A stretch of 64,000 nucleotides of DNA, taken from Selenomonadales bacterium (GTDB taxonomy: Bacteria > Bacillota > Negativicutes > Sporomusales > UBA7701). The notes under the pieces are model-generated. The model did no database searches, had not been told where the DNA came from, and worked only from the letters and a program-made list of their open reading frames with translations. The translations under genes were made by a program, and so were the position numbers. Positions 2 to 52,391 of the stretch are shown piece by piece (position 1 is the stretch's first letter; every line of letters begins with the position of its first letter). The DNA lies in contig JARKPR010000068.1 in the NCBI GenBank assembly GCA_029975165.1, positions 1-64,000 on the forward strand, in the 5' to 3' direction.

Positions 2-53
2 TGGCCGCAAGAGGGAGTGAGAATCAGGTGATTCTCACTCCCTCTTGCGGCCA
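2..53. repeat. Perfect 25-bp inverted repeat with 2-bp loop
   Basis: Positions 2-26 and 29-53 are exact reverse complements separated by GG. The arm contains GGCCGCAAGAGGGAGTGAG. There is no T-run, so it is not a standard terminator. It lies at the extreme end of the window within the IS remnant and overlaps the end of the OrfA-like frame. It may be a rearrangement breakpoint, a recombination hairpin or an assembly-end artefact. Confidence 0.85.
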
Positions 54-209
54 ACGCTTCGTCAACATCTGGACAGTATCCAACGTCAATTGATGGACTT
101 TATGCAGCAGCAGCAACACAAATTCTTTTGCAATGGCGCGATGCGTTATGCCCCGTTCTTTCATAACAAGCACTTGCGCTATAATGCTTTCTCCGAAATG
201 TTTGCCCAT
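24..209 (-). pseudogene. IS3-family OrfA N-terminal fragment
   Basis: The 61-residue frame opens MGKHFGESIIAQVLVMKERG and continues THRAIAKEF, the usual start of IS150-type OrfA, where a helix-turn-helix DNA-binding domain is expected. After about residue 30 the similarity is lost (FVLLLLHKVHQ), consistent with a small deletion or frameshift, and the frame ends inside the palindrome at 2-53. It is far shorter than a full OrfA (about 100-170 residues), so I treat it as a non-functional remnant. Confidence 0.6.
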
Positions 210-281
210 TTACAAGACCTCCTGTCGTAGTTATCCTACAAAAGGAGGTCTTTTTGCTCAATGTCCATTTTTGGGGGTTCA

Positions 282-436
282 GTCCACATGCCACTGCTGC
301 ATTTACGATGGACACTTATGTTCATAAAACCGACGACATGATAAAGGGCGTGCGCGAAAAACTCACAAGAAAAAGGCGTGGTAGTCAAAAAGTAGTCACA
401 GCCCAACGGACTAAAAATGAAAAAGCCCAGGAGTAA
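282..436 (+). pseudogene. C-terminal fragment of a tyrosine recombinase (integrase)
   Basis: The plus-strand frame reads HATAAFTMDTYVHKTDDM and then a basic tail, ending in TAA at 434-436. The A-F-T-x-D-T-Y-x-H block is the end of the phage/ICE tyrosine recombinase catalytic domain, in which the Tyr is the nucleophile. Everything upstream is missing because the IS3-type end lies directly against it. It converges on the 3' end of tRNA-Leu at 462, the usual position of an integrase relative to a tRNA attachment site. It is likely the scar of a lost integrative element. Confidence 0.65.
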
Positions 437-450
437 ATCTCCTGGGCTTT
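422..450 (-). terminator. Intrinsic terminator of the tRNA operon
   Basis: A 12-bp perfect stem (422-433 with 439-450) has a 5-nt loop and T-rich sequence on the minus side. It lies just downstream of tRNA-Leu and also covers the last codons of the integrase fragment, so it may work in both directions. Confidence 0.75.
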
Positions 451-461
451 AATTTTACTAC

Positions 462-546
462 TGGTGCGGGCGAAGGGACTTGAACCCCCACGGTTTTACC
501 CAACGGATCCTAAGTCCGTCGCGTCTGCCAGTTCCGCCACGCCCGC
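462..546 (-). tRNA. tRNA-Leu (anticodon TAG)
   Basis: Type II tRNA of 85 nt with encoded CCA (462-464 on the plus strand as TGG). The acceptor GCGGGCG pairs with CGCCCGC, the anticodon loop is CTTAGGA, and there is a long variable arm. It is last in the Leu-Lys-Gln-His minus-strand cluster. Its 3' end faces the integrase fragment, so it is the probable attachment site. Confidence 0.95.
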
Positions 547-562
547 ATAACAAACAGATAAA

Positions 563-638
563 TGGTGACCCACGATGGACTCGAACCATCGACACCCTGA
601 TTAAAAGTCAGGTGCTCTACCGACTGAGCTAGTGGGTC
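563..638 (-). tRNA. tRNA-Lys (anticodon TTT)
   Basis: 76 nt with encoded CCA. The acceptor GACCCAC pairs with GTGGGTC, the anticodon stem-loop is CCTGA-CTTTTAA-TCAGG, and the T-loop GGTTCGAGTCC is intact. It lies 16 nt from tRNA-Leu in the same transcript. Confidence 0.96.
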
Positions 639-643
639 ACGTC

Positions 644-719
644 TGGCAGGGGCGGCTGGACTCGAACCAACGCATGACGGAGTCAAAGTCCGTTGCCTTA
701 CCGACTTGGCTACGCCCCT
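644..719 (-). tRNA. tRNA-Gln (anticodon TTG)
   Basis: 76 nt with encoded CCA. The acceptor AGGGGCG pairs with CGCCCCT, discriminator G. The anticodon stem-loop ACGGA-CTTTGAC-TCCGT gives TTG. Only 5 nt separate it from tRNA-Lys. Confidence 0.95.
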
Positions 720-733
720 GTGTATTAACTTGA

Positions 734-810
734 TGGGGTGACTGGAGGGGATCGAACCCTCGAGTACCGGAGCCACAATCCGGCGTGTTAACCACTTCAC
801 CACAGCCACC
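734..810 (-). tRNA. tRNA-His (anticodon GTG)
   Basis: 77 nt including the extra G(-1) opposite C73 that marks tRNA-His. The anticodon loop is TTGTGGC and CCA is encoded. It is the first gene of the tRNA operon, directly behind the promoter at 842-870. Confidence 0.95.
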
Positions 811-841
811 ATAAAAGCAGGCAACGCCTGCGACAAAATAT

Positions 842-870
842 ATTCTACCATGGGGGTACCCTTATGTCAA
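842..870 (-). promoter_or_regulatory. Sigma-A promoter of the tRNA operon
   Basis: On the minus strand TTGACA (870-865) and TAGAAT (847-842) are separated by exactly 17 bp, about 32 bp before tRNA-His. Confidence 0.85.
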
Positions 871-976
871 GAATCCCTTGCGGTAAAATAAATTGCCAAA
901 AACGGCCCTTTCCGGGGCAAGCGAAAAAGCTCCGCCGTCGCGAAGCCTTCCCCGAGACCCGCCTATACGCCCCCGG

Positions 977-1135
977 CTAACCGCCCGGCTTCGTCGCCAG
1001 CGCCAGCATCGCCTGCGTGACCCAGCGGTAATAAGACTCCCCGCACCGGTCGCAGCAATAAAGATTCCAGCCATGCACCGGCGTCTTCCCCACCAGATGG
1101 GCGATTCCCCCGCACTCGTGCCTCACTCTGAACAT
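977..1135 (-). CDS. Small cysteine-rich (zinc-ribbon-like) protein
   Basis: The 52-residue product begins MFRVRHECGG and contains C8, then C27-C28 and C31 (YCCDRCGESYY), a pattern that could bind one metal ion. The ATG at 1135 lies a few bases downstream of the stop of the preceding gene (1141-1143), whose end supplies the GAGGT-like ribosome site, so translation is probably coupled. No family is recognised. The next 120 bp downstream hold nothing recognisable before the tRNA promoter. Confidence 0.6.
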   Translation of the reverse strand: MFRVRHECGGIAHLVGKTPVHGWNLYCCDRCGESYYRWVTQAMLALATKPGG

Positions 1136-1140
1136 GCCAT

Positions 1141-1341
1141 CTACCTCGCTCCGCTGAAATCCTCCGCCCCCTTCGCCGCCTTCGCGGCGAACGACAGGCA
1201 CTCCGTCCCCGACGCCTCCTTCGTCACCAGGCACGGGGCCGTCCTGCTCTTGAACCCCATCGCCCGGCAGCCGTAAGGGAAACCCTTGTCCCATGTCACG
1301 TAATAGTGCCGGCAATCCATGCACAGCGGCCTCACCGCCAT
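1141..1341 (-). CDS. Small conserved cysteine protein of unknown function
   Basis: 66 residues from ATG 1341, preceded by GGAGGGGAGG. An upstream in-frame start would add 20 residues but lacks this site. Five cysteines (C7, C10, C25, C37, C48) occur in a compact pattern: CMDCRHYYVTWD, PYGCRAMGFKS and GTECLSF. I have the impression of a widespread small protein in anaerobic bacteria with the TWD...PYGC...GFKS signature, but its role is unknown to me. It forms a coupled pair with the zinc-ribbon-like protein at 977-1135. Confidence 0.65.
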   Translation of the reverse strand: MAVRPLCMDCRHYYVTWDKGFPYGCRAMGFKSRTAPCLVTKEASGTECLSFAAKAAKGAEDFSGAR

Positions 1342-1441
1342 CCGGCTCCTCCCCTCCGCAGCGCGGCCCGGAAAATTCCTCTTGTCTACATTATACCACA
1401 TTGCCGCCCGTTGGGAACCGGCAAACTCGGCCGCCCGCCGG

Positions 1442-1897
1442 CTACCGCAACGCGGTGTACAGGGCGACGGCCAGCGAAACCAGCCCGCCGGCGATCAGCG
1501 GCCCGATCGCCACCCCCTGCAGGAACGACACCCCGATGACCGTGCCGACCACCAGTGAACTGACCATCTCCGGCGTCTCCTTGATGAAAAACAGCCCCCG
1601 GCCGGCGGCGTACGCCGCGAAAATGCCGGCGGCGATTGCCAGCAGCCCCACCGGGTTCCGGAAAGCGTCGGCCATATGCTGCAGCGTGATACGGCCGGAG
1701 GCGACCGGGGCCAAAATGGCGATCGTCAGGATGATCAACCCGATATTCATCCCCTTGCTCTCCAGCACCGGGAACCAACTGTCCAGCCCCAGCAGCTTGA
1801 CCGCCACCAGCACCGCCGCCGCCACCGACACCGACTGATTGTTCCCCAGCACCGCCAGCACAAGAATAAGCAAAATCGGCAAACTATCCCACGACAC
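1442..1897 (-). CDS. DUF441 / UPF0756 family membrane protein
   Basis: 151 residues, nearly all hydrophobic, with four or five membrane segments. It matches the UPF0756 (YtwI/YeaL) pattern: an early LGNNQS motif, KLLGLDSWFPVLESKG at about 35-50, PVASG near 67 and GVAIGPLIAGG near the end. The function of the family is unknown. I chose GTG at 1897 because GAGGAGGG lies 6 nt upstream; an in-frame TTG six codons earlier overlaps that ribosome site. It stands alone. Confidence 0.88.
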   Translation of the reverse strand: MSWDSLPILLILVLAVLGNNQSVSVAAAVLVAVKLLGLDSWFPVLESKGMNIGLIILTIAILAPVASGRITLQHMADAFRNPVGLLAIAAGIFAAYAAGRGLFFIKETPEMVSSLVVGTVIGVSFLQGVAIGPLIAGGLVSLAVALYTALR

Positions 1898-1994
1898 GAA
1901 AATCCCTCCTCGCAAAATCTCCAGGCGCTTCCCCGGCCCGCTACTAACATCTCACCGCGGCCGCCGCCTTATGCCCCTTGCGCCGCCTAAGCAA

Positions 1995-2024
1995 AAGCCG
2001 CAGGAGCTTACGTCCGTGCGGCTT
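1995..2024 (-). terminator. Intrinsic terminator after the TPR gene
   Basis: The minus strand forms AAGCCGCA / TGCGGCTT with a 14-nt loop followed by TTTGCTT. It lies 35 bp past the stop of the TPR gene. Confidence 0.6.
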
Positions 2025-2058
2025 CGGTTCCGTCAGTTCGCCCTGCGGCGGCAAAGGC

Positions 2059-3120
2059 CTATTTCCCCTTCACGGCCAGCGCCGCCGCCTTCTTCTTGGC
2101 GTCGGCCACCTCATACGGACAATACGGCGGGGGATTCTCGAGGAAAAGCACATAGGCCGCGCGCGCTTCCGCCGTCCTGCCCAGCTTCTCCAGCGCCGCC
2201 CCCCGGCGGTAATGGGCGATGGAATACCGCCCGTCGAGCGCCAGCGCCTTGTCCGCGTCGGCGACCGCCGCCAGGTACCTCCCCTGGGCGATATAAAACT
2301 CCGCCCGGCCGCCGTACAAGTCAGCCGCATTCGGCCTGACCAGCAACGCCCTGTCGACCTCGCCCACGGCGGCATCCACCTGGCCCTGGGCGAAATACAC
2401 GTACGCCTTCTGCTTCATCGCCAGATAATGCCGCGGATCGTTTTTCAGGATGCGCTCGCAATCGGCCATCGCCAGCGAATACTGGCGGCTCTCCCGATAA
2501 GCGATCGCCCGGTTGAGATAATACTCGTTCGCCCCCGGGTTGATCTCGATCGCCCGGTTGTAATCGGCCAGCGCCGCCGGCACCTTCCCCCGGTCGAAAT
2601 ACATCAGCCCGCGGTTATAATAAGCATCCGCGTAGCGCGGATCGATCCTCACCGCCGCGCCATAGTCCGCCTCCGCCTTTGCGTAATCCCGCTTGCCCTC
2701 GTAGGCGATCGCCCGGCGGTTATACGCACGGGCGAACTTGCCGTTCAGGCTGATCGCCCGGCTATAGTCGGCGATCGCCAAATCGTACATCCCGTAGTTG
2801 TAATAGCCCCAGCCGCGGTTATTGTAAGCCTCGGCGTCGCCGGGATCGATAGCCAGCGCCAGATTCTCGTCGGCCAGCACCTGCTCGTAGTTCTGCAAAG
2901 CGATATGGCAGACCGCCCGCCGGTCGTAAGCCTTCGCGTAGCGCGGCTCCGCGGCGATCGCCTTCGTGAACGCCGCGATCGCCCCCTGGTAATCCCCCGC
3001 CTTGAAGCTGCGCTCACCCTGCGAAAACCAGTATATCGCCTCCGGGGAGTGCTCCTGGGCCGCCGTCACGGGCAACGTGCAAAAACCGAGGACCAATACC
3101 AGCGCGACGAAAATACGCAA
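2059..3120 (-). CDS. Exported tetratricopeptide-repeat protein
   Basis: About 353 residues. A hydrophobic signal segment (RIFVALVLVLGFCTLPVTAA) is followed by roughly eight 34-residue TPR units with the characteristic A-Y-x-N-R-G / A-I-A-D-Y-x-x-A-I signatures. TPR arrays form protein-binding superhelices, so a periplasmic or envelope scaffold role is inferred. I place the start at TTG 3120 behind GGGGGGATGG; the open frame continues 64 codons upstream, but that part looks non-coding. The partner is unknown. A terminator follows at 1995-2024. Confidence 0.8.
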   Translation of the reverse strand: MRIFVALVLVLGFCTLPVTAAQEHSPEAIYWFSQGERSFKAGDYQGAIAAFTKAIAAEPRYAKAYDRRAVCHIALQNYEQVLADENLALAIDPGDAEAYNNRGWGYYNYGMYDLAIADYSRAISLNGKFARAYNRRAIAYEGKRDYAKAEADYGAAVRIDPRYADAYYNRGLMYFDRGKVPAALADYNRAIEINPGANEYYLNRAIAYRESRQYSLAMADCERILKNDPRHYLAMKQKAYVYFAQGQVDAAVGEVDRALLVRPNAADLYGGRAEFYIAQGRYLAAVADADKALALDGRYSIAHYRRGAALEKLGRTAEARAAYVLFLENPPPYCPYEVADAKKKAAALAVKGK

Positions 3121-3263
3121 CCGCCATCCCCCCAATGCCCCTCTCTCCGCGTCCTCCTTCGCCGGAACAAAGCCGCGCCTCTCGCATACACCTTCGTTGA
3201 CGGCTGCCCGATTCCTGCCATTTATCACCAGGGGAGGCAAAAAAACGCTACCCGAAAAGAAAA

Positions 3264-3289
3264 GCCGCAAGAGCCTGCGCCCCTGCGGC
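3264..3289 (-). terminator. Probable intrinsic terminator
   Basis: GCCGCA / TGCGGC stem on the minus strand followed by TTTTCTTTTC, 20 bp downstream of the stop at 3309. Confidence 0.55.
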
Positions 3290-3308
3290 CACACCTCTTC
3301 GCCCGCCG

Positions 3309-3794
3309 TCACCGGAACCAGCGCAGCAGGAAGAACGGATCCCGCTCCTCGGAATAGCCGTCCTCGCGCACATAGATGAACACGCCGCCGTCCATATACC
3401 CGAAACCGACCACCTCGTCGCGATCATCGAAAAACAGAATCGCGTCCCGTATCTCCCGGCCGTTGTGCCAGAACCCCTCGCGGCGCTCGCCGTAACCGTG
3501 CCAGCGGAAAGCGTGCAGTCCGGGGTAACGGTGCGCGAATTCCCGGTCGTGGATACGTTCCATATGATGCTTGCCGAACATGCGGTGATTATCCCGCCAC
3601 TTGAACGGCATGGACCTGTCATGCCCGTCGCGGTCGCGGTCGTAGCTGCCCCGGTCGCCGTGGCTCACCCGGTCGCGGCCGTCGTGCCGGTCGCCGCGCC
3701 GGTCGTAGTGCCCTCCCCGGTCCGCCGCCAGCGCCGTCGCCGCCACGCCCAGCACCAGCGCCAGCGCCAGCACCAGCGCCAATATGCGCTTCAT
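3309..3794 (-). CDS. Secreted charged protein of unknown function
   Basis: 161 residues from ATG 3794 (GGAAAGGAGGGG 6 nt upstream). A signal peptide (MKRILALVLALALVLGVAAT) ends in ALAADRGG. The next 45 residues are Asp/Arg/His/Gly-rich (repeats such as DRHDGRDRVSHGDRG) and likely disordered. They lead to a folded C-terminal part with aromatic motifs (PGLHAFRWHGYG, DAILFFDDRDEVVGFGYM). The His/Asp-rich stretch might bind metal; this is inference. No family is recognised. Confidence 0.75.
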   Translation of the reverse strand: MKRILALVLALALVLGVAATALAADRGGHYDRRGDRHDGRDRVSHGDRGSYDRDRDGHDRSMPFKWRDNHRMFGKHHMERIHDREFAHRYPGLHAFRWHGYGERREGFWHNGREIRDAILFFDDRDEVVGFGYMDGGVFIYVREDGYSEERDPFFLLRWFR

Positions 3795-3895
3795 GCCGAC
3801 CCCTCCTTTCCTGCTACATCCTACGCAGCAGGCCGCCGCAAAATGACACCATCCGCGCCGCCCAAACGAAAAGCCCCGCTTGCGCGGAGCCCTCT

Positions 3896-4369
3896 TCAAA
3901 GTCCCAGCTCGGCCAGGATGGCCGCCAGCCGCCGCCGGTAGCTCTCCCCCGGCAGAGGGATGCCGTACTGATGGCAATCCAGCACATCGGCGTCCTTCAC
4001 GATCTCCTCCAGCGCCGACCCGATCTCGCCCTTGCTGCTGTGCCCCTTCACCGCCAGGGCGATCAACTCGGCCTCCTCGGCCGTGAAACAGCCGCTCTCG
4101 CCGAGAAAAACCTTCACCGGCTCATACCCGGCGGCGGCGTGGTCCTCGTGCCGCCCCGTCACAATCCGGCCGTAATCGTGCACCGAACAGGCCACCGCCG
4201 CCAACTCGGCATCATAGCCGCGCCGCGCCGCCAAAAAGTACCCGTTGCGGGCGCAGCTCGCCAGATGCATCCGCTCCCACTGCAGGGACGTATCCCGCTC
4301 CCCGCCCGCGCGCTCCAGCGCGGCGATCCTTTCCAGCAGCATGCGCTGCACCTTGAAGACCCGGTTCAT
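3896..4369 (-). CDS. HD-domain phosphohydrolase
   Basis: 157 residues. Metal-binding residues of the HD superfamily are visible: His in RMHLASC (about 35), the HD pair in CSVHDYGRI (about 64-65) and Asp in VKDADVLD (about 126-130). Such small HD proteins are often annotated as metal-dependent hydrolases acting on nucleotides, but the substrate cannot be read here. It starts at ATG 4369 with AAGGAGGG. Its neighbours (a secreted protein and a NUDIX hydrolase) do not define a pathway, although the NUDIX neighbour is compatible with nucleotide housekeeping. Confidence 0.82.
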   Translation of the reverse strand: MNRVFKVQRMLLERIAALERAGGERDTSLQWERMHLASCARNGYFLAARRGYDAELAAVACSVHDYGRIVTGRHEDHAAAGYEPVKVFLGESGCFTAEEAELIALAVKGHSSKGEIGSALEEIVKDADVLDCHQYGIPLPGESYRRRLAAILAELGL

Positions 4370-4467
4370 GCGGCCCTATCCCTCCTTATCGCGGCGACCG
4401 GCTACTTCCTTCGCCGGCGGCCGGAAAAACCCCCTGCCCTTTTTCCGGGGCGCCGCCCGCCCAAAAC

Positions 4468-4491
4468 AATAACCGCCCGCAAGCGGTCATT
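4468..4491 (-). terminator. Intrinsic terminator overlapping the NUDIX stop codon
   Basis: AATGACCGC / GCGGTTATT on the minus strand, one mismatch, followed by GTTTTGG. The hairpin begins within the stop codon region of the NUDIX gene. Confidence 0.55.
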
Positions 4492-5332
4492 GGAATACAT
4501 CGAGCGTTTTCCGCGCCTTCCCGATGATCGCCTCCCTGGCCTCCTCGTCCAGCCCGTTCCACGCCTCGTCCGCATACCCGGTCTCCGGATGCGCGGCCAC
4601 GACGGCGTCGAGAATCTCCGGCAAACTCCTCCCGGACCGGAAGGCGGCCCTGTCGATGGCGGCGACCAACAGCGGCAGGACGTTACTATTCAGCTTTGCC
4701 GGCATCTTCTCCACTGTCTTAACGCCATCCGTCCCCGTCAGCCCATTCTTCGCCCGGAAAGCAAGCCATTTGCCAAACGCGCTGATCGTATAAGGGTCCT
4801 TGATCTCGCTCTTCGCTACCATCTCCTGCAGCGCTTCCTCGCCGGCACAGGCGACCCTCCGAATGCTCTCCAGCCGCTGGCCGGCGGTCGTCGCCCCCTG
4901 CGCGCCGCCGCTACCCGCAACATCGGCCTGGAAAACATGCATCTCATTCTCCATATGGGCCGTATCGGTATAAAACCAGCCCAAATACCTGACATTGCCG
5001 GCCTCCGCCGCCAGCTCCTCGCGCAGCTCCCTTCTCGCGGCAGCCTCAAATTCCTCGCCATGCTCCACGAACCCGCGCGGAAACTCGAGCAGCCACTCCG
5101 CGGCGGCATGACGGAATATGCTGACAAGGCAATACTCGCCGTCGGCGGTCACCGGCACGATCAAAACGCCCTTGTTCTTATGGCCCTTGATGCGTACATA
5201 GCTCCCCTCCGTCCCGTCCGGAAAGGCGACCTTATCGTCGTAAACGCAATAATACCCGTTATCGAGCACCTGTCGCGGCTCGACAAGCTCGATCTCCCCT
5301 TTTCTCCTGTCGCCGCGGTAATCGCTCCTCAT
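4487..5332 (-). CDS. NUDIX hydrolase with C-terminal extension (ADP-ribose pyrophosphatase-like)
   Basis: 281 residues. The NUDIX box GFVEHGEEFEAAARRELREE (about 91-110) matches GX5EX7REUXEEXGU, binding Mg2+ for hydrolysis of a nucleoside diphosphate linked to another moiety. The preceding beta-strands (RIKGHKNKGVLIVPV) and the RHAAAEWLLEFPRG block resemble ADP-ribose/NDP-sugar pyrophosphatases. The last ~100 residues form an extra helical region not part of a standard NUDIX fold. The substrate is inferred. It starts at ATG 5332 with GAGGCGGG close upstream. Confidence 0.85.
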   Translation of the reverse strand: MRSDYRGDRRKGEIELVEPRQVLDNGYYCVYDDKVAFPDGTEGSYVRIKGHKNKGVLIVPVTADGEYCLVSIFRHAAAEWLLEFPRGFVEHGEEFEAAARRELREELAAEAGNVRYLGWFYTDTAHMENEMHVFQADVAGSGGAQGATTAGQRLESIRRVACAGEEALQEMVAKSEIKDPYTISAFGKWLAFRAKNGLTGTDGVKTVEKMPAKLNSNVLPLLVAAIDRAAFRSGRSLPEILDAVVAAHPETGYADEAWNGLDEEAREAIIGKARKTLDVFQ

Positions 5333-5467
5333 CCCGCCTCATCCCCGTCCTCGCCCCGGCCGCGCTCGCACCCGCGGCCGCGAAAATCCTGCCCCTTCCT
5401 GCTACGGTCCCCTCCAGGCAAACCCCTATTCTGCCGGGCAACACCCGTCGGGCGCTGCCGCCCGGCC

Positions 5468-5653
5468 CTACACCCTTATATCCAGCGGATTCTTGTTGCT
5501 CCGCGACTGCGCTGCCGAAGCCTTGATCAGGCTTAAAATAATATTCTCCGCATCATCGCATATATGCTCCGCATTCTTATTGATGACTTCCTCGTCTTCC
5601 TGCTCCAGATACAGCTTAAGAATCACTTTGACTTTGTCCTTATTGACCAGCAT
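5468..5653 (-). CDS. Small acidic/basic protein of unknown function
   Basis: 61 residues beginning MLVNKDKVKVILKLYLEQED, with charged helical character throughout and no signal peptide or cysteine. ATG 5653 is preceded by GAGGGTAGGAAG. The upstream 120 bp are AT-rich, with a possible minus-strand promoter (TTGTCA near 5701-5706). I do not recognise a family. Codon usage looks like that of the neighbours, so it is probably a real gene. Confidence 0.55.
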   Translation of the reverse strand: MLVNKDKVKVILKLYLEQEDEEVINKNAEHICDDAENIILSLIKASAAQSRSNKNPLDIRV

Positions 5654-5778
5654 CTTCCTACCCTCTCAGCATATCCAATATACGACAATATTTATCATTA
5701 TTTGACAAATAACATCCAATTCCTCTTATTATTAAAAAATAGCAATAAAAAATGGCAGCCCTGCGCAAATTCCGCGGC

Positions 5779-6720
5779 TTAAAACCAATGCACCAGCAGG
5801 CCGCCGGCCAAAAGCGCGCCGAAAAGCGTATTCGTCTGCGCCGTTGCCGCCATGGCCGGCATAAGGGCCGGCGCCGCGGTGTTCTGCCGGAAAAGGCGGG
5901 AGGCCCGGAGCGCTTTCGGCAGGCTGAACAACGCCGCCAGCGCCCACGGCGACACCACCTCGGCGACCACCAGGAAAACGAGCCAGCCGTAAGAAAAAGC
6001 GAACATGCCCATCAAACAGAAAATCGCCCTGTTCCTGGTCAGCAAAATGGCCAGCGTTTTGCGGCCGTGCTTTTTGTCGTCCTCCAAATCGCGGATATTG
6101 TTGGCCATCAATATGGCGCCGATGAGAACGGACGTGGGCACGGACACGAGCACGGCGGCGGCGGTGACGGCGCCGGTCTGGATGAACTGCGCTATCGCGA
6201 TAATCACGAGGCCCATAAGCATACCCGCCACCAATTCCCCGAACGGAGTCGCCGAAATGGGATACGGCCCGCCCGAATAAAGATAACCCACCGCGGCGCA
6301 CACAAGGCCGACAGGCAAAAGCCACCAGCTTGTCCGCAGGCAAATATACAGGCCCAGCGCCAGGGCGGCCGCCAGGACGCCCAAGGCCAAAGCCATGACC
6401 GTCCGCGGCGCGACGCCGTCCCTGACGATCGCGCCGCCGATCCCGACCGAATGCTCGTGGTCCAGCCCGCGCCGGTAATCATAATACTCGTTGAACATAT
6501 TGGCTGACACCTGAATCAGCAGGCTTGCCGCCAGCATGGCCACAAAAAGCTCGCTATAGAAATGCCCGGACGGCAGCGCCAAAACCGTACCGATTATCAC
6601 CGGCACAAAAGACGCCGTCAACGTATGGGGGCGCAGCAGCCGCCACCAGACCTCCCAATCGCGCCCGGCGCCCCGCACCCCCGGACCGACGTTGCGGTCC
6701 GTCCTTGTTTGCAGATGCAT
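5779..6720 (-). CDS. menA: 1,4-dihydroxy-2-naphthoate polyprenyltransferase family (UbiA superfamily)
   Basis: 313 residues with about eight membrane helices. The two Asp-rich prenyl-diphosphate sites of UbiA enzymes are present: NMFNEYYDYRRGLD (about 77-90) and NNIRDLEDDKKHGRKT (about 212-227). The first half carries RPHTLTASFVPV, typical of MenA. The reaction would join an isoprenoid chain to dihydroxynaphthoate for menaquinone synthesis in the membrane. No other men genes are nearby, but the cytochrome bd and fumarate reductase-like genes in this window could use menaquinol. It starts at ATG 6720 with GGAGGAAG. Confidence 0.9.
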   Translation of the reverse strand: MHLQTRTDRNVGPGVRGAGRDWEVWWRLLRPHTLTASFVPVIIGTVLALPSGHFYSELFVAMLAASLLIQVSANMFNEYYDYRRGLDHEHSVGIGGAIVRDGVAPRTVMALALGVLAAALALGLYICLRTSWWLLPVGLVCAAVGYLYSGGPYPISATPFGELVAGMLMGLVIIAIAQFIQTGAVTAAAVLVSVPTSVLIGAILMANNIRDLEDDKKHGRKTLAILLTRNRAIFCLMGMFAFSYGWLVFLVVAEVVSPWALAALFSLPKALRASRLFRQNTAAPALMPAMAATAQTNTLFGALLAGGLLVHWF

Positions 6721-6836
6721 TGCGTTCTTCCTCCGCTAATATATTCCTCGTTCCCGCCGGCCGGGCAACCGGCTAATTCGTCCGCCTGCGAAACAGGCCG
6801 CCTGTTCCGTCGCCGTAACAAAAGGCAGACAACGAA

Positions 6837-6859
6837 ACCCCCGGCCGTGACCGGGGGCT
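6837..6859 (-). terminator. Intrinsic terminator of the ferritin-like gene
   Basis: AGCCCCCGG / CCGGGGGT stem on the minus strand with T-containing tail, just past the stop at 6883. Confidence 0.6.
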
Positions 6860-6882
6860 CTGCCGGTGAATATCCATCAGAA

Positions 6883-7431
6883 CTATACCGTTCTGATTAA
6901 CTCCTGCAGCTTCTCGACATGAGTCTGCTCCTCGGCCTTCAAATCGGCAAACACCTTTTTGGCCGCAGGAAACTTCGCATTATTCATCATCACATCATAA
7001 AATAAAATCGAGTCTTTCTCCGCTTGCAGAGCAAACTGCAGGATGCCCTTCGCCTTCAGGACGACCGAACTGCTTTGGCCCGGTATCTGGTCCTGCCAGC
7101 CGGTTCGTAAAACACCGTTGGCCATTTCGGGTTCGGCGGCAAACGGATTATCCCGCGGGAAAACCTGCGTCTCCACAAGCGCCTGAAGATAGCGCGACAC
7201 ATCGGCATCGAAAAAATACTCCTCGTCGCCGGCGCTCTTATTCGCCTTCAACTCACTATACATAGCCTCGAACTTGGCGGCGTGATTCAGTTCCTCCCGC
7301 ATCAAAAACCCGAACAACATCTTTTGCTCCGGGTCATGGGCGCCGTCATGCGCCTGCCGGTAAAAAGCCGCCCCCTGCCTTTCCATATCCACGGCCAACC
7401 GCAGGCCCTCCAGGTCGCTGAAATAACTCAT
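6883..7431 (-). CDS. Ferritin-like diiron protein (rubrerythrin-type)
   Basis: 182 residues from ATG 7431, with GGGAGTGAAG 6 nt upstream; a GTG four codons earlier overlaps that site. The four-helix pattern of carboxylate ligands is readable: DMERQGAAFY, REELNHAAKFE, ALQAEKDSILFY and KAEEQTHVEKL, giving two ExxH-like pairs. There is no rubredoxin domain. A role in peroxide or iron handling is inferred, fitting an anaerobe. A second, shorter protein of this kind lies at 30894-31406. Confidence 0.85.
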   Translation of the reverse strand: MSYFSDLEGLRLAVDMERQGAAFYRQAHDGAHDPEQKMLFGFLMREELNHAAKFEAMYSELKANKSAGDEEYFFDADVSRYLQALVETQVFPRDNPFAAEPEMANGVLRTGWQDQIPGQSSSVVLKAKGILQFALQAEKDSILFYDVMMNNAKFPAAKKVFADLKAEEQTHVEKLQELIRTV

Positions 7432-48111: not shown

Positions 48112-48522
48112 TCAGCGCATCAGGCCCGAGCAGCCGCGCGTGCAGGTGCCGCTGCAGCCGCTGCCGCAGTTGTTGGAGCAGCTGCCGCGACAGGTCTGCT
48201 GGCAGGAGCCGGTGCAGGTCTGGTAGCAGCTGCCGCGGCAGGTGTTGTCGCAGCCGTAGCTGCAGGTACCGCCGCACGAGCCGGAGCAGGCGCCGGCGCA
48301 GCCCCAGTTGCAGTTGCGGAGGGGGGTCCGGTCGCCGGCCGCGCCGGCGTCGGGGACGGTCGTCCGGCCACCCTGCCCCGCTGCGGCGAGCGGGCCGGAG
48401 GCCGCGGCGATCGAGCCGAGGCCGAGGACGGCGATGGACGGCAGGACGGCACCGGCCGTTTTGAGGAAGTCGCGCCTGGTTAAGCCGGCGGCGGGCCTGT
48501 TTTTCTTGTCCGGCTTTTTCAT
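48112..48522 (-). CDS. CXXX-repeat RiPP precursor with twin-arginine leader
   Basis: 136 residues from ATG 48522 (AAGGAGG 6 nt upstream). The N-terminus has a twin-arginine motif (LTRRDFLKTAGA, R16-R17) and hydrophobic stretch (LPSIAVLGLGSIAAA). After a 25-residue linker, 16 cysteines follow at residues 71, 75, 79 and so on to 131, exactly every fourth residue, with small or polar spacers (CAGACSGSCGGTC, CRGSCYQTCTGSC). This is the substrate of the upstream maturases by position and pattern. Thioether or other Cys cross-links made by the radical SAM enzyme are the expected modification. Last gene of the four-gene cluster. Confidence 0.88.
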   Translation of the reverse strand: MKKPDKKNRPAAGLTRRDFLKTAGAVLPSIAVLGLGSIAAASGPLAAAGQGGRTTVPDAGAAGDRTPLRNCNWGCAGACSGSCGGTCSYGCDNTCRGSCYQTCTGSCQQTCRGSCSNNCGSGCSGTCTRGCSGLMR

Positions 48523-48564
48523 GGCCACCCTCCTTTCCGTCTAAGGGGAATGGGTCCTAAAGCG

Positions 48565-48864
48565 TCACTGGCGGCGCAGGTAGATGTCGCCGGTGGCGAA
48601 GTCGATTTCCCAGCTGTGGCCGCTGATGTTTTCCCAGCCGTAGGTGCGGCTTTTTTCGTCCCACCAGGCCTGGAATTTGCCGGCGGTGGCCGCCATGTCG
48701 GCGACGAGCCGTTCGTAGAGGGGGCTTGCGGCCGTTTCTTCGGCCGCCATGCCGACGAGGGCGCGGAAGAGTTCGCCGAGGGCGTTTTTGCGTTCGTAGA
48801 GGGCTTTGATTTCGTCGCGTTCCGCCGGGGTTACGGCGCCGATTTTCCGTCGCTGGTCATTCAT
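48565..48864 (-). CDS. CXXX-repeat peptide modification accessory protein
   Basis: 99 residues: VTPAERDEIKALYERKNALG, ELFRALVGMAAEET, YERLVADMAATAGKFQAWWD and SWEIDFATGDIYLRRQ. The helical body with a K-F-Q-x-W-W motif and closing beta-hairpin matches my recollection of a small conserved protein that accompanies CXXX-repeat maturases; its biochemical role is unknown (perhaps precursor binding). Its ATG overlaps the end of the maturase gene by 8 bp and it lies 42 bp before the precursor. Confidence 0.78.
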   Translation of the reverse strand: MNDQRRKIGAVTPAERDEIKALYERKNALGELFRALVGMAAEETAASPLYERLVADMAATAGKFQAWWDEKSRTYGWENISGHSWEIDFATGDIYLRRQ

Positions 48865-49810
48865 GGCCTAATCCTCCATCGCTGATTTGGCTGAAGGGGT
48901 CGAGGTAGTCGAGGGCGGGGATGGGCGCCTGGCGCGCGAAGGCGGGCAGGTCGGCGAGGCGCTGCCGGAGCAGGCGGGTGGTTTCGCGTTCGTGGTGGGC
49001 GAGCAGGCATTGCTGGCGGGAGGGGGTGTTCCATTCGAGGGTGGTTTTGCGGTTGAGGTAGATGCAGCGTTTGCAGTGCCAGGCGTCGCAGCGGGCGCAG
49101 ACGGGGGCGTTCTCCAGGGCGAGCAGGCGGGCGTTGGCGACGGCGATGCCGCCCGTGAGGCTGCCGACGGCGCCGGCGTGGAGGAAGCCGGGACAGAGGT
49201 GGAGGCGGCCGTCGGGGGCGACGGTGAGGTGGACGGTGCCGGCGTCGCAGTTGTTCATGCGGCTGAGGAGCAGGCGGTCGGAGAGGATGCTGAGTTCGGT
49301 GAGGGCGCCCTGCCGGTAGCGGGCGGCGAGCAGGCCGGCGACGAGGCCGAGCTGCCGGCGGTAGAGGGCGAGGTCGCCGTCGGTGTAGCGGTCGATGTCG
49401 AGGGGATAGAGGTTGAGGCGGGTAGTGCGTTCGAGAGCGACGCCGACGACGGCGGCCAGGTCGGCCAGGCGCTCGCGGGGCAGGCGGACGATGAGCTGGG
49501 GCCGGACGCCCGGGATGGCGCCGGGGTCGTCTTGGCCGGCGACGAGCACGGGGACGGCGTCGGGGTGGCGGCCAGCGAGGGCGGCGGGGACGATGGCGGC
49601 GGGGCCGGCGGCGGCGATGATGTCCCGGCAGGCGGCCGGCAGCGGGGTTTCGCCGTAGAGGAGGACGAGGGCCAGGGAGCGGCGGCGGGCGAAGGCGACG
49701 GCCGTCGCCAGGACGGCGGGGGACATGGTTTGGCCGGGACCGCGGCCGGACGGGTAGTAGCAGAAGGACGGGGCGGCGGTGTCGAGGAGGACGAGGAGGT
49801 GGGTCAGCAT
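48857..49810 (-). CDS. CXXX-repeat peptide maturase (SPASM-like, no radical SAM motif)
   Basis: 317 residues from ATG 49810. There is no CxxxCxxC motif. The N-terminal half (LLVLLDTAAPSFCYYPSGRG) is followed by a C-terminal cysteine-rich region like SPASM auxiliary clusters: MNNCDAGTVHLTVAPDGRLH, LCPGF, then CARCDAWHCKRCIYLNRK and QQCLLAHHE. It matches the companion maturase described for CXXX-repeat systems. Its start overlaps the radical SAM stop by 7 bp and its stop overlaps the accessory gene, so translation is coupled. It is probably a partner that binds extra Fe-S clusters. Confidence 0.8.
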   Translation of the reverse strand: MLTHLLVLLDTAAPSFCYYPSGRGPGQTMSPAVLATAVAFARRRSLALVLLYGETPLPAACRDIIAAAGPAAIVPAALAGRHPDAVPVLVAGQDDPGAIPGVRPQLIVRLPRERLADLAAVVGVALERTTRLNLYPLDIDRYTDGDLALYRRQLGLVAGLLAARYRQGALTELSILSDRLLLSRMNNCDAGTVHLTVAPDGRLHLCPGFLHAGAVGSLTGGIAVANARLLALENAPVCARCDAWHCKRCIYLNRKTTLEWNTPSRQQCLLAHHERETTRLLRQRLADLPAFARQAPIPALDYLDPFSQISDGGLGHE

Positions 49811-50976
49811 GTGCCGGCCCCCAGTTTCCGCCTGAGGCGGTCCCAGTAGTAGCGGTTGGCACGGACGCGGGCTTTGTGCATGGGGCAGATGTAGGTGGCG
49901 CGCTGGTAGATGGTGGCGGTGTCGCTGCATTCGTAGTTGAGGCCCTGGCACCAGGCGCAGCCGCTGGCGATTTGGCAGGCGACGCATTGGGGCGGGCTCT
50001 GCGCCAGGCGGGTGAGGGCGAGGAAGGGCCGCAGGCGGTTGGTGTCGAGGCCGTCGCGGCAGTTGCCGACGGACCTGGGCGCCTGCCGGCTCATGGAGTG
50101 GGGGGCGAAGCGGACGCAGGGGTAGAATTCGCCTTGGGCGCCGATGGCAAGCATTTTGCCGGACCCGCACCAGTTCTGGTTGTCGCCGGCGGGATCGAGG
50201 GGGCGGCCGATGGTGTCGTCGAAGAGGGAGCAGCGGTATTGCCGGTAGAGGCCGCGGTCGACGATGGCGTCGGCGAGGCTAAGGAGCTGGTCTTCGAGGA
50301 GGGCGTCGTCGCCCGGCTGCCAGATGTTTTCGAAGACGACGTTGATGTTGACGGTTTGGACGCCCAGCCCCCAGAGGTGGAGGACGCTGTCTTTGATGTA
50401 GGGCAGGTCGTCGTGGGCGATGGTGACTTTGGTGGCGGCGCCGGGGAATTGGCGCAGCCAGAGGGGGAGCTGGGCGGCGACGGCGTCGTAGGAGCCGCGG
50501 CCGTCGGGGAAGACACGCATGAGGTCGTGTTTTTCGCGGATGCCGTCGATGGTTATGCCGATGCTGAGGTGGGTGCGGTTTTTGGCGATGTAGCGCTGGA
50601 CGCGGGGGTCGCCGTACATGAGGCCGTTGGTGGATAGGCTGAAGCGGTAGCTGTCGAACCAGGGGTGGCCTGTTTCGTAGAGGCGGAGTTTGATGTAGTC
50701 GCTGATGCGGTCGATGAGGTCGATTTCGAGGAGGGGCTCGCCGCCGATGAATTCCCAGACGACGGAGGGCTCGGCGAAAAGCGCCCGTTCGCGCAGGATG
50801 TAGTCGACCGCCTGGCGGGCGACGGCAAGGTCCATGCGCCGGCCGGGGTTTTTGCCGACGAGGTAGCAGTATTTGCAGCGGAGCTGACAGTCTTCGGTGA
50901 CGATGAAGGTTATGTTTTTGGCGCGGTCTTCCTCCCAGGAAGGTTCCGGCCGCGCGAGCCGGTCAAGGTTGTCCAC
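49804..50976 (-). CDS. Radical SAM/SPASM peptide maturase of the CXXX-repeat type
   Basis: 390 residues from GTG 50976 (GCGAGG 5 nt upstream); GTG 50982 is an alternative. The radical SAM cluster motif is C30-x3-C34-x2-C37 (DCQLRCKYCYL), with a GGE motif (WEFIGGEPLLEI) and STNG strand. The SPASM-type cysteines lie in NWCGSGKMLAIGAQGEFYPC, CVACQIASGCAWCQGLNYEC and YICPMHKA. It would use S-adenosylmethionine to generate a 5'-deoxyadenosyl radical and modify the precursor core. First gene of the locus; only a weak promoter is visible upstream (51000-51060). Confidence 0.9.
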   Translation of the reverse strand: MDNLDRLARPEPSWEEDRAKNITFIVTEDCQLRCKYCYLVGKNPGRRMDLAVARQAVDYILRERALFAEPSVVWEFIGGEPLLEIDLIDRISDYIKLRLYETGHPWFDSYRFSLSTNGLMYGDPRVQRYIAKNRTHLSIGITIDGIREKHDLMRVFPDGRGSYDAVAAQLPLWLRQFPGAATKVTIAHDDLPYIKDSVLHLWGLGVQTVNINVVFENIWQPGDDALLEDQLLSLADAIVDRGLYRQYRCSLFDDTIGRPLDPAGDNQNWCGSGKMLAIGAQGEFYPCVRFAPHSMSRQAPRSVGNCRDGLDTNRLRPFLALTRLAQSPPQCVACQIASGCAWCQGLNYECSDTATIYQRATYICPMHKARVRANRYYWDRLRRKLGAGTC

Positions 50977-51089
50977 AGGCACCTCGCTGGCGGTTGCTGG
51001 TATTTATTGTATTTTTGCTACTGTTATACATGGTATAGGGAAAATCCTGCCAATTGGGAGGAGCGGCGGGAAAATATGTGGGCAAATGG

Positions 51090-51137: not shown

Positions 51138-52391
51138 CTATTGCATTTTTTCTTTGAGTATTTCGACGGCTTTGTCGAGCTGGAGGTCGCTGCCGGTTTC
51201 CCGGTAGTCGAGCGGCAGGGTGACGAAGATGTCGGGTTCGATGCCGATGTTGTCGATGACGCGGTCGGCGGGGGTGTGGTAGCGGGCGGTGGTGATTTTG
51301 AGGGCGGTGTCGTCGCCGAGGGGGACGAGGGTCTGGACGGAGCCTTTGCCGAAGGATCTGGTGCCGACGAGGGTGCCGGCGTGGGTGTCCTGGATGGCGC
51401 CGGCGACGATTTCGGAGGCGCTGGCGCTGCCGCCGTTGATGAGGACGACGAGGGGCAGGCCGAGGTTGTCGCCTTCGGTGTTGCTGGTGCGGCGGCTGCC
51501 GTCCCTGGCGACGACGGAGACGACGGGGCCTTGGGGGATGAAGCGGCTGGCGACTTTGACGCTGGCGCTGATTAGGCCGCCGGGGTTGTTGCGCAGGTCG
51601 AGGATGACGGCTTGCATGCCTTGGGCCTGCAGGTCGCGGATGGCGGCGTCGAGGTCTTCGCCGGTGTGGTTGTTGAAGTAGGTGAGGCGGAGGTAGCCGA
51701 TGCCGCCGTCGAGCATTTTGCCGAAAACGGATTTGATTTGGATGACGGCGCGGACGAGGGTGTAGTCGCGGTTGTTTTCGCCGGCGCGGGAGACGGTGAG
51801 GGTGACGGGGACGCCTTCGGGGCCGCGGATCAGGCTGACGGCCTTGTCGAGGGGCATGTCTTTGGTGGTCTGGCCGTCGATGGCGAGGACGCGGTCGCCG
51901 CTGACGATGCCGGCCGCGTCGGCGGGGGTGCTTTCGATGGGGGCGATGACGGTGATCTGTTTGTCGCGCATGCCGAGGACGAGGCCGACGCCGCTGAAGG
52001 AGCCTTCGGCTTCGGCGAGGAAGTCTTTGAGGGTTTTGGCGTCGAAGTAGTCGGTGTAGGGGTCGCCGGCGGCGGCGACGGCACCCCGGATGGCGCCGGT
52101 CATGAGGTCGCGCCCGGCGGGGTCGTCGACGTGCCCTTGGTTTATCAGTTCCCGGACGCGGAAGAGTTTGAGGGTGACGGCGAGTTCGGCGGCGTCCATT
52201 TGGGTGAGGTAGTGGTAGATTTCGGCGAGGGCGTTTTCGTCGGCGCCGGCTTTGAAGACGAAGCTTTGCGGGGGAATGGCGGCTTTGGCGGCGGCCTGGG
52301 GGGCGGCGAGGGCCGGCCCGCCGAGCAGGAAGAGGGCGGCGATTGCGGCGGCGAGGATGCGCCGGCAACGGCGCCCGCTGATGAAAGGCAT
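51138..52391 (-). CDS. C-terminal processing peptidase (S41 family, CtpA-like)
   Basis: 417 residues with a signal peptide (RILAAAIAALFLLGGPALAA). A PDZ domain lies at about 125-205 (GSFSGVGLVLGMRDKQITVI, AGIVSGDRVLAIDG). The S41 core follows: GGIGYLRLTYFN, VILDLRNNPGGLI, the Ser region GGSASASEIVAGAI (about 320-333) and the Lys in RSFGKGSVQT (about 349). It cleaves proteins near their C-termini in the envelope. ATG 52391 with CGGAGG. It lies downstream of nothing related and could contribute to processing of exported proteins, including possibly the neighbouring TAT peptide (speculative). Confidence 0.92.
   Translation of the reverse strand: MPFISGRRCRRILAAAIAALFLLGGPALAAPQAAAKAAIPPQSFVFKAGADENALAEIYHYLTQMDAAELAVTLKLFRVRELINQGHVDDPAGRDLMTGAIRGAVAAAGDPYTDYFDAKTLKDFLAEAEGSFSGVGLVLGMRDKQITVIAPIESTPADAAGIVSGDRVLAIDGQTTKDMPLDKAVSLIRGPEGVPVTLTVSRAGENNRDYTLVRAVIQIKSVFGKMLDGGIGYLRLTYFNNHTGEDLDAAIRDLQAQGMQAVILDLRNNPGGLISASVKVASRFIPQGPVVSVVARDGSRRTSNTEGDNLGLPLVVLINGGSASASEIVAGAIQDTHAGTLVGTRSFGKGSVQTLVPLGDDTALKITTARYHTPADRVIDNIGIEPDIFVTLPLDYRETGSDLQLDKAVEILKEKMQ

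Follow-up and report, generated by a model that had tools for sequence, protein, structure and literature searches.

Encoded at 48112-48522 of the window (the whole 64,000-nucleotide stretch of DNA analysed here) is a peptide precursor in which a Tat-like leader and a linker precede a CXXX-repeat core. We consider it probable that this peptide is a RiPP addressed to Tat, its repeat being modified in the cytoplasm ahead of export, a call based on the leader motif, its conservation and the presence of tatC. The precursor gene is the last of a cassette of four adjacent genes on the same strand, transcribed in the order radical SAM, TIGR04119, TIGR04116 and precursor, with overlaps of 7-8 bases between the three maturation genes. 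The features are as follows.

49804..50982, minus strand: radical SAM/SPASM maturase, 392 residues (TIGR04115, 587 bits; cut-off 350)
48857..49810, minus strand: CXXX repeat peptide maturase, 317 residues, radical-SAM/SPASM-like without CX3CX2C (TIGR04119, 190 bits; cut-off 150)
48565..48864, minus strand: CXXX repeat peptide modification system protein, 99 residues (TIGR04116, 78.3 bits; cut-off 50)
48529..48534, minus strand: AGGAGG ribosome-binding site, 5' of the ATG at 48522; three genus relatives likewise have AAAGGAGG ahead of the ATG
48112..48522, minus strand: precursor gene, 136 residues, with Tat-like leader, linker and CXXX core (TIGR04114, 24.8 bits; TIGR04117, 36.4 bits)
48406..48483, minus strand: Tat-like leader, residues 14-39 (LTRRDFLK...P-S-I-A-V-L-G-L), with RR, P and A invariant in ten leaders
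48313..48405, minus strand: Ala/Gly/Pro-rich linker, residues 40-70, with possible AxA-type signal peptidase sites, not conserved
48130..48312, minus strand: core, residues 71-131, with a Cys at exactly every fourth residue (16 in all), kept in three relatives

The cysteines of the precursor fall at residues 71, 75 and so on to 131 (n = 16); all 15 gaps are of four residues and no Cys is found elsewhere in the peptide. The initial annotation had read this array and its coordinates correctly, the gene lying on the minus strand, and the plus strand at 48112-48522 is a low-complexity artefact frame interrupted by a stop. It had also drawn attention to an LTRRDFLK motif followed by a hydrophobic stretch, and this motif indeed occupies residues 14-21. 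As a strong ribosome-binding site (AAAGGAGGGTGGCC-ATG) shows, translation begins before the RR, and since such a site precedes the equivalent ATG in three genus relatives as well, the RR motif is translated; a start 3' of the RR is ruled out, in the relatives too. All three of these relatives carry RRDFIK and 16 Cys at period four.

The machinery is that of the catalogued NCBIfam CXXX-repeat RiPP system, because TIGR04115, TIGR04119, TIGR04116 and the repeat model TIGR04114 (cut-off 20) all exceed their curated cut-offs. Against the precursor model TIGR04117 the window peptide falls under the cut-off of 50; two Rhodospirillales relatives that share its leader exceed this value. The radical SAM protein, an association that the initial annotation had foreseen, contains a CX3CX2C motif and seven SPASM-type Cys, and its nearest solved structure is CteB (PDB 5wgg), spanning residues 22-374. 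The TIGR04119 protein lacks CX3CX2C but has seven invariant Cys that follow a SPASM-like arrangement; its profile matches the SPASM region of CteB 5wgg (E 9e-5), and CteB is also the only confident match of its structural model (E 2e-7; pLDDT 65, with low values towards the C terminus). In three relatives, from Anaerococcus, a Clostridiaceae genome and Tissierella, it forms one chain with the radical SAM protein, and such fusion indicates that the two belong together, and from sequence and model it looks like a pseudo-radical-SAM partner of the radical SAM enzyme. The AlphaFold2 model of the TIGR04116 protein (pLDDT 86.6) comprises a strand, three helices and two strands. It has no PDB match with E < 0.001 and its strand order is unlike that of an RRE, so we rejected its assignment to a known fold or an RRE.

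Neighbouring genes were also considered as cassette members. The S41 protease gene at 51138-52391 is excluded, because another gene intervenes between it and the radical SAM gene in L010, and no S41 protease was seen next to the Rhodospirillales (L016) or Acidobacteriota-phylum (L108) loci. The UvdE gene, found 3' in relatives, and GGDEF genes are mere neighbours.

PapB links Cys to an Asp or Glu four residues further on (PMC9413430). In the window core, the residue at i+4 is again Cys for 15 of the 16 cysteines and Met for the final one, never an acidic residue, and the core holds one acidic residue in total. PapB-type Cys-to-Asp/Glu links are thus ruled out for most of the array and the acceptor must differ from that of PapB. 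Across the relatives only the cysteines are fixed, and X2 is preferentially Gly in the Tat-type precursors, and X3 a small residue or one with a hydroxyl group. G, S, T and N make up ~70% of the core residues other than Cys. This disfavours an alpha helix and makes an alpha-helical version of the rod envisaged in the initial annotation unlikely; a turn-rich chain of small rings appears the more plausible shape. The literature available to us contained nothing relevant on CXXX-repeat peptides or on the chemistry of CXXX maturases.

It is possible, although we think it unlikely, that the cysteines stay uncross-linked and serve as a periplasmic thiol or metal-binding array resembling a metallothionein or a bufferin, the radical SAM enzyme making some other change. 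Such an array would suit 16 Cys in 66 residues and a repeat without a fixed acceptor residue, and bufferins, which are RiPPs rich in Cys and exported, bind copper (PMC12452194). The nearest characterised enzymes, PapB and CteB/SCIFF, however, make thioethers from Cys (PMC9413430, PMC8326336), and profile searches identified no metal-related gene among the cassette proteins. The metal binding thought conceivable in the initial annotation would drop if all of the thiols were made thioethers. An MNIO enzyme with its partner was not found among the cluster proteins scanned.

Ten leaders from three phyla (the window's genus and the L016 and L108 genomes) were aligned. All ten share M, RR, P and A, and L-x-L is close to invariant; the RR is never KR or KK, a hydrophobic pair stands behind it, followed by a hydrophobic stretch, and the motif P-x-[IL]-A is conserved. 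In all four L016 precursors an AxA-type site (VQA, AQA, VSA or ARA) stops 1-2 residues before the first repeat Cys, which argues that the leader acts as a signal. tatC is present in the window's own genome (TatC, E 2.5e-67) and in all three genus relatives. The presence of tatC does not predict leader type: RR-less relatives include Tissierella, in which tatC went undetected, as well as genomes that have it (Clostridiaceae, Margulisbacteria). Curated Tat profiles remain under their cut-offs, PF10518 matching the window precursor with 19.5 bits (E 9e-4; gathering score 22.7) and none of the three genus relatives' precursors, and TIGR01409 scoring 10.1 bits in the window and 13-15.5 in the relatives (cut-off 16.7). 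The Tat prediction of the initial annotation therefore stands on the translated RR motif before a hydrophobic stretch, on its conservation and on the presence of tatC, and not on a formal predictor. Homologues devoid of leader and periodicity alike, which would have counted against that annotation, were not what we observed: the Tat-like leader recurs together with the repeat in homologues. Modification in the cytoplasm ahead of export, as had been proposed, would be the natural order for Tat.

A rather doubtful alternative holds that the leader, for all its resemblance to a Tat signal, serves chiefly in recognition by the maturase, the peptide being exported otherwise or kept inside. The sub-threshold profile scores favour this reading, as does a conservation exceeding that of a generic Tat signal (the invariant Pro and P-x-[IL]-A), and relatives that lack the RR, with maturases of the same families, have short leaders of their own (SKI..N). 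Yet the RR is invariant and backed by the hydrophobic pair and stretch, AxA sites abut the core in the Rhodospirillales paralogues, the genomes concerned also have tatC, and an RRQFLR leader is borne by a CXXX precursor of a second branch, represented by an Acidobacteriaceae MAG (L112). Recognition and export are not exclusive roles, and the conservation of P-x-[IL]-A suggests that a Tat-addressed leader may have maturase recognition as a second role.

Signal peptides as RiPP leaders have been called "highly unusual" and are described as Sec signals in bufferins (PMC12452194); in a search covering mostly papers outside subscription, we found none on Tat leaders of radical SAM RiPPs. The initial annotation's description of the leader as unusual holds for RiPPs in general but not within one clade of CXXX maturases, all of which has such precursors. 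Because the TIGR04117 alignment to the precursor already includes the RR region, the leader is part of a family that had been catalogued, although we found no discussion of its meaning. Judged by sequence comparison, the Tat-like leader is no oddity of the window locus.

Relatives were gathered by a scan of named genomes and by whole-genome searches, the Anaerococcus locus by a plasmid search. The cassette is rare, being found in 1 of 398 genomes of a phylum sample and 4 of 300 of a class sample, all from the window's genus, in which four of five genomes have it. True relatives are the Rhodospirillales MAG L016, the Acidobacteriota-phylum genome L108, and those of Clostridiaceae (L017), Tissierella (L018) and Anaerococcus (L009), with termite-gut Margulisbacteria and a Mollicutes MAG more remote; TIGR04117 was matched in none of 297 genomes from the phylum of a Halodesulfovibrio locus. 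In the radical SAM tree, the window's genus groups with L016 and L108 in a single clade (92/92) that spans three phyla and is sister to the clostridial types. Gene tree and species tree conflict, and the cassette is therefore likely to have spread by horizontal transfer.

Every CXXX precursor found in that clade has the RR followed by a Tat-like [DGSH]-[FLV]-[LIM], with one such precursor per genus member, four in L016 and three in L108. The clostridial precursors of the sister types are RR-less, with ~30 residues before the repeat, and ABC transporters with a membrane domain lie near their cassettes. The Acidobacteriaceae locus with the RRQFLR-bearing precursor (L112, 6681-8964) is on a separate branch, its radical SAM protein scoring about equally with the PapB and TIGR04115 models; on this sequence evidence, a Tat-like leader with a CXXX core is present on two branches of the radical SAM tree. 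In the termite-gut Margulisbacteria (L020-L023 and L025, Ca. Termititenax and others), giant CXXX proteins of ~500-670 residues have 79-122 Cys, mostly four apart, and no RR leader, and their genes adjoin a TIGR04115-like radical SAM gene and genes for small TIGR04116-like proteins.

We propose the following route for the Tat-addressed precursor. The precursor would be made with its Tat leader, the start being shown by the ribosome-binding site and the Tat routing being predicted. The TIGR04116 protein and the pseudo-radical-SAM TIGR04119 protein may then bind the leader, present the core and mask the signal. By analogy to PapB and CteB, the TIGR04115 enzyme would modify the Cys of successive CXXX units and compact the core, the product most likely being thioether cross-links to carbons of neighbouring residues. 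The host Tat translocase would accept the compact core with no need for a dedicated exporter, a step suggested by the presence of tatC and by the lack of an ABC exporter in the ORFs examined beside Tat-type cassettes. Finally, signal peptidase could cleave an AxA site in the linker and free the cysteine-derived chain into the envelope. An extension of this route is speculative, and as a whole we give it rather little probability: Tat proofreading would act as a RiPP checkpoint, such that only fully cross-linked cores can be exported, and the product would be a continuous ladder of undescribed Cys-derived links, given that the only residues at a fixed distance from a Cys are themselves Cys.

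Possible roles of the exported chain include a scaffold, a metal or redox buffer and a toxin. The last of these corresponds to an ordinary bacteriocin-type RiPP secreted via Tat, which we regard as improbable. A CXXX relative on an Anaerococcus plasmid does adjoin an ABC transporter and a lanthipeptide synthetase, but neither an immunity gene nor a dedicated exporter was recognised at the window cassette, and the core is near-identical among genus relatives instead of diversified. For these same reasons, we slightly prefer a scaffold or buffer retained in the envelope as the role of the Tat-addressed peptide. The plasmid in question, pAPRE01 of Anaerococcus prevotii, is conjugative, and the fused TIGR04115-TIGR04119 gene (locus 44-6361) adjoins the ABC transporter gene and one for a synthetase of the LanKC type.

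The window is G+C-rich (64%) and has overlapping open frames on the opposite strand, but a chance low-complexity ORF is extremely improbable and was rejected: given 16 Cys within the last 66 residues, all fall in step of four with a chance of 7e-15 (at most 11 share one phase in 200,000 shuffles), frame and spacing are kept in the relatives, the cassette is a curated one, and within the genus leader (dN/dS 0.06-0.44) and core (0.07-0.29) are under purifying selection, values that come from few sequences with dS partly saturated. For the linker, most comparisons give values close to neutrality (0.74-1.13), with an outlier of 0.14 where dS is saturated and one comparison not computable.

The CXXX cassette is found in several phyla and in phage. 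A viral contig (IMGVR_UViG_3300036886_000243, 2045-8370) has matches to TIGR04115 (430 bits) and TIGR04116 (79.5 bits) and encodes a 937-residue protein whose interior contains a CXXX array with 50 Cys and 41 gaps of four; a phage may carry the system to modify one of its own large proteins. In a second (IMGVR_UViG_3300036766_002220), a TIGR04115 radical SAM gene (473 bits) lies downstream of a baseplate-wedge-like phage gene, and a CXXX array is absent within the stretch examined, 1555-7116. A locus from an Acidobacteriota-phylum genome (L110, 4118-9419) encodes, next to a radical SAM gene, a 762-residue protein (phrog_8917) whose C-terminal part carries a long Cys array, and this locus adjoins tail-fibre-like and endolysin genes. 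CXXX precursors and a TIGR04115-like radical SAM gene also lie near tail-fibre-like genes in an uncultured Mollicutes MAG (L024, 7012-9040), possibly a prophage.

Tat prefers folded cargo, and a Tat leader would therefore be a simple answer to the problem of premature export. How RiPPs with an export signal avoid leaving the cell unmodified is a question that has been raised for the Sec-exported bufferins (PMC12452194). The peptide system was already catalogued; what is added here is the leader as a testable idea of how the product exits the cell.

The window system can be compared with four known ones. Bufferins, which are MNIO-modified and copper-binding, are likewise Cys-rich RiPPs with a signal peptide as leader and a periplasmic action, but differ in using Sec instead of Tat and an MNIO instead of a radical SAM enzyme, and in their core. 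SCIFF/CteB (TIGR03974; PDB 5wgg) provides the closest solved structure for the radical SAM protein and for the SPASM part of the TIGR04119 protein, yet is a separate family, for which the window maturase scores 100 bits against a cut-off of 425; a SCIFF precursor and SCIFF-type maturase are present elsewhere in the same genome (L014, around 8232 of contig C37). The PapB/freyrasin ranthipeptides (NF047865) share a radical SAM/SPASM enzyme and in-line Cys motifs with three-residue spacing, whereas the window maturase scores 169 bits against a cut-off of 340 and the i+4 residue is Cys instead of Asp/Glu; a Tat leader is not known among them. The fourth is the CXXX-repeat RiPP system itself (TIGR04114, 04115, 04116, 04117 and 04119), with the same three maturation proteins and a Cys at every fourth residue, from which the window precursor differs in its TIGR04117 score below the cut-off and in its uninterrupted 16-Cys array behind a 31-residue linker.
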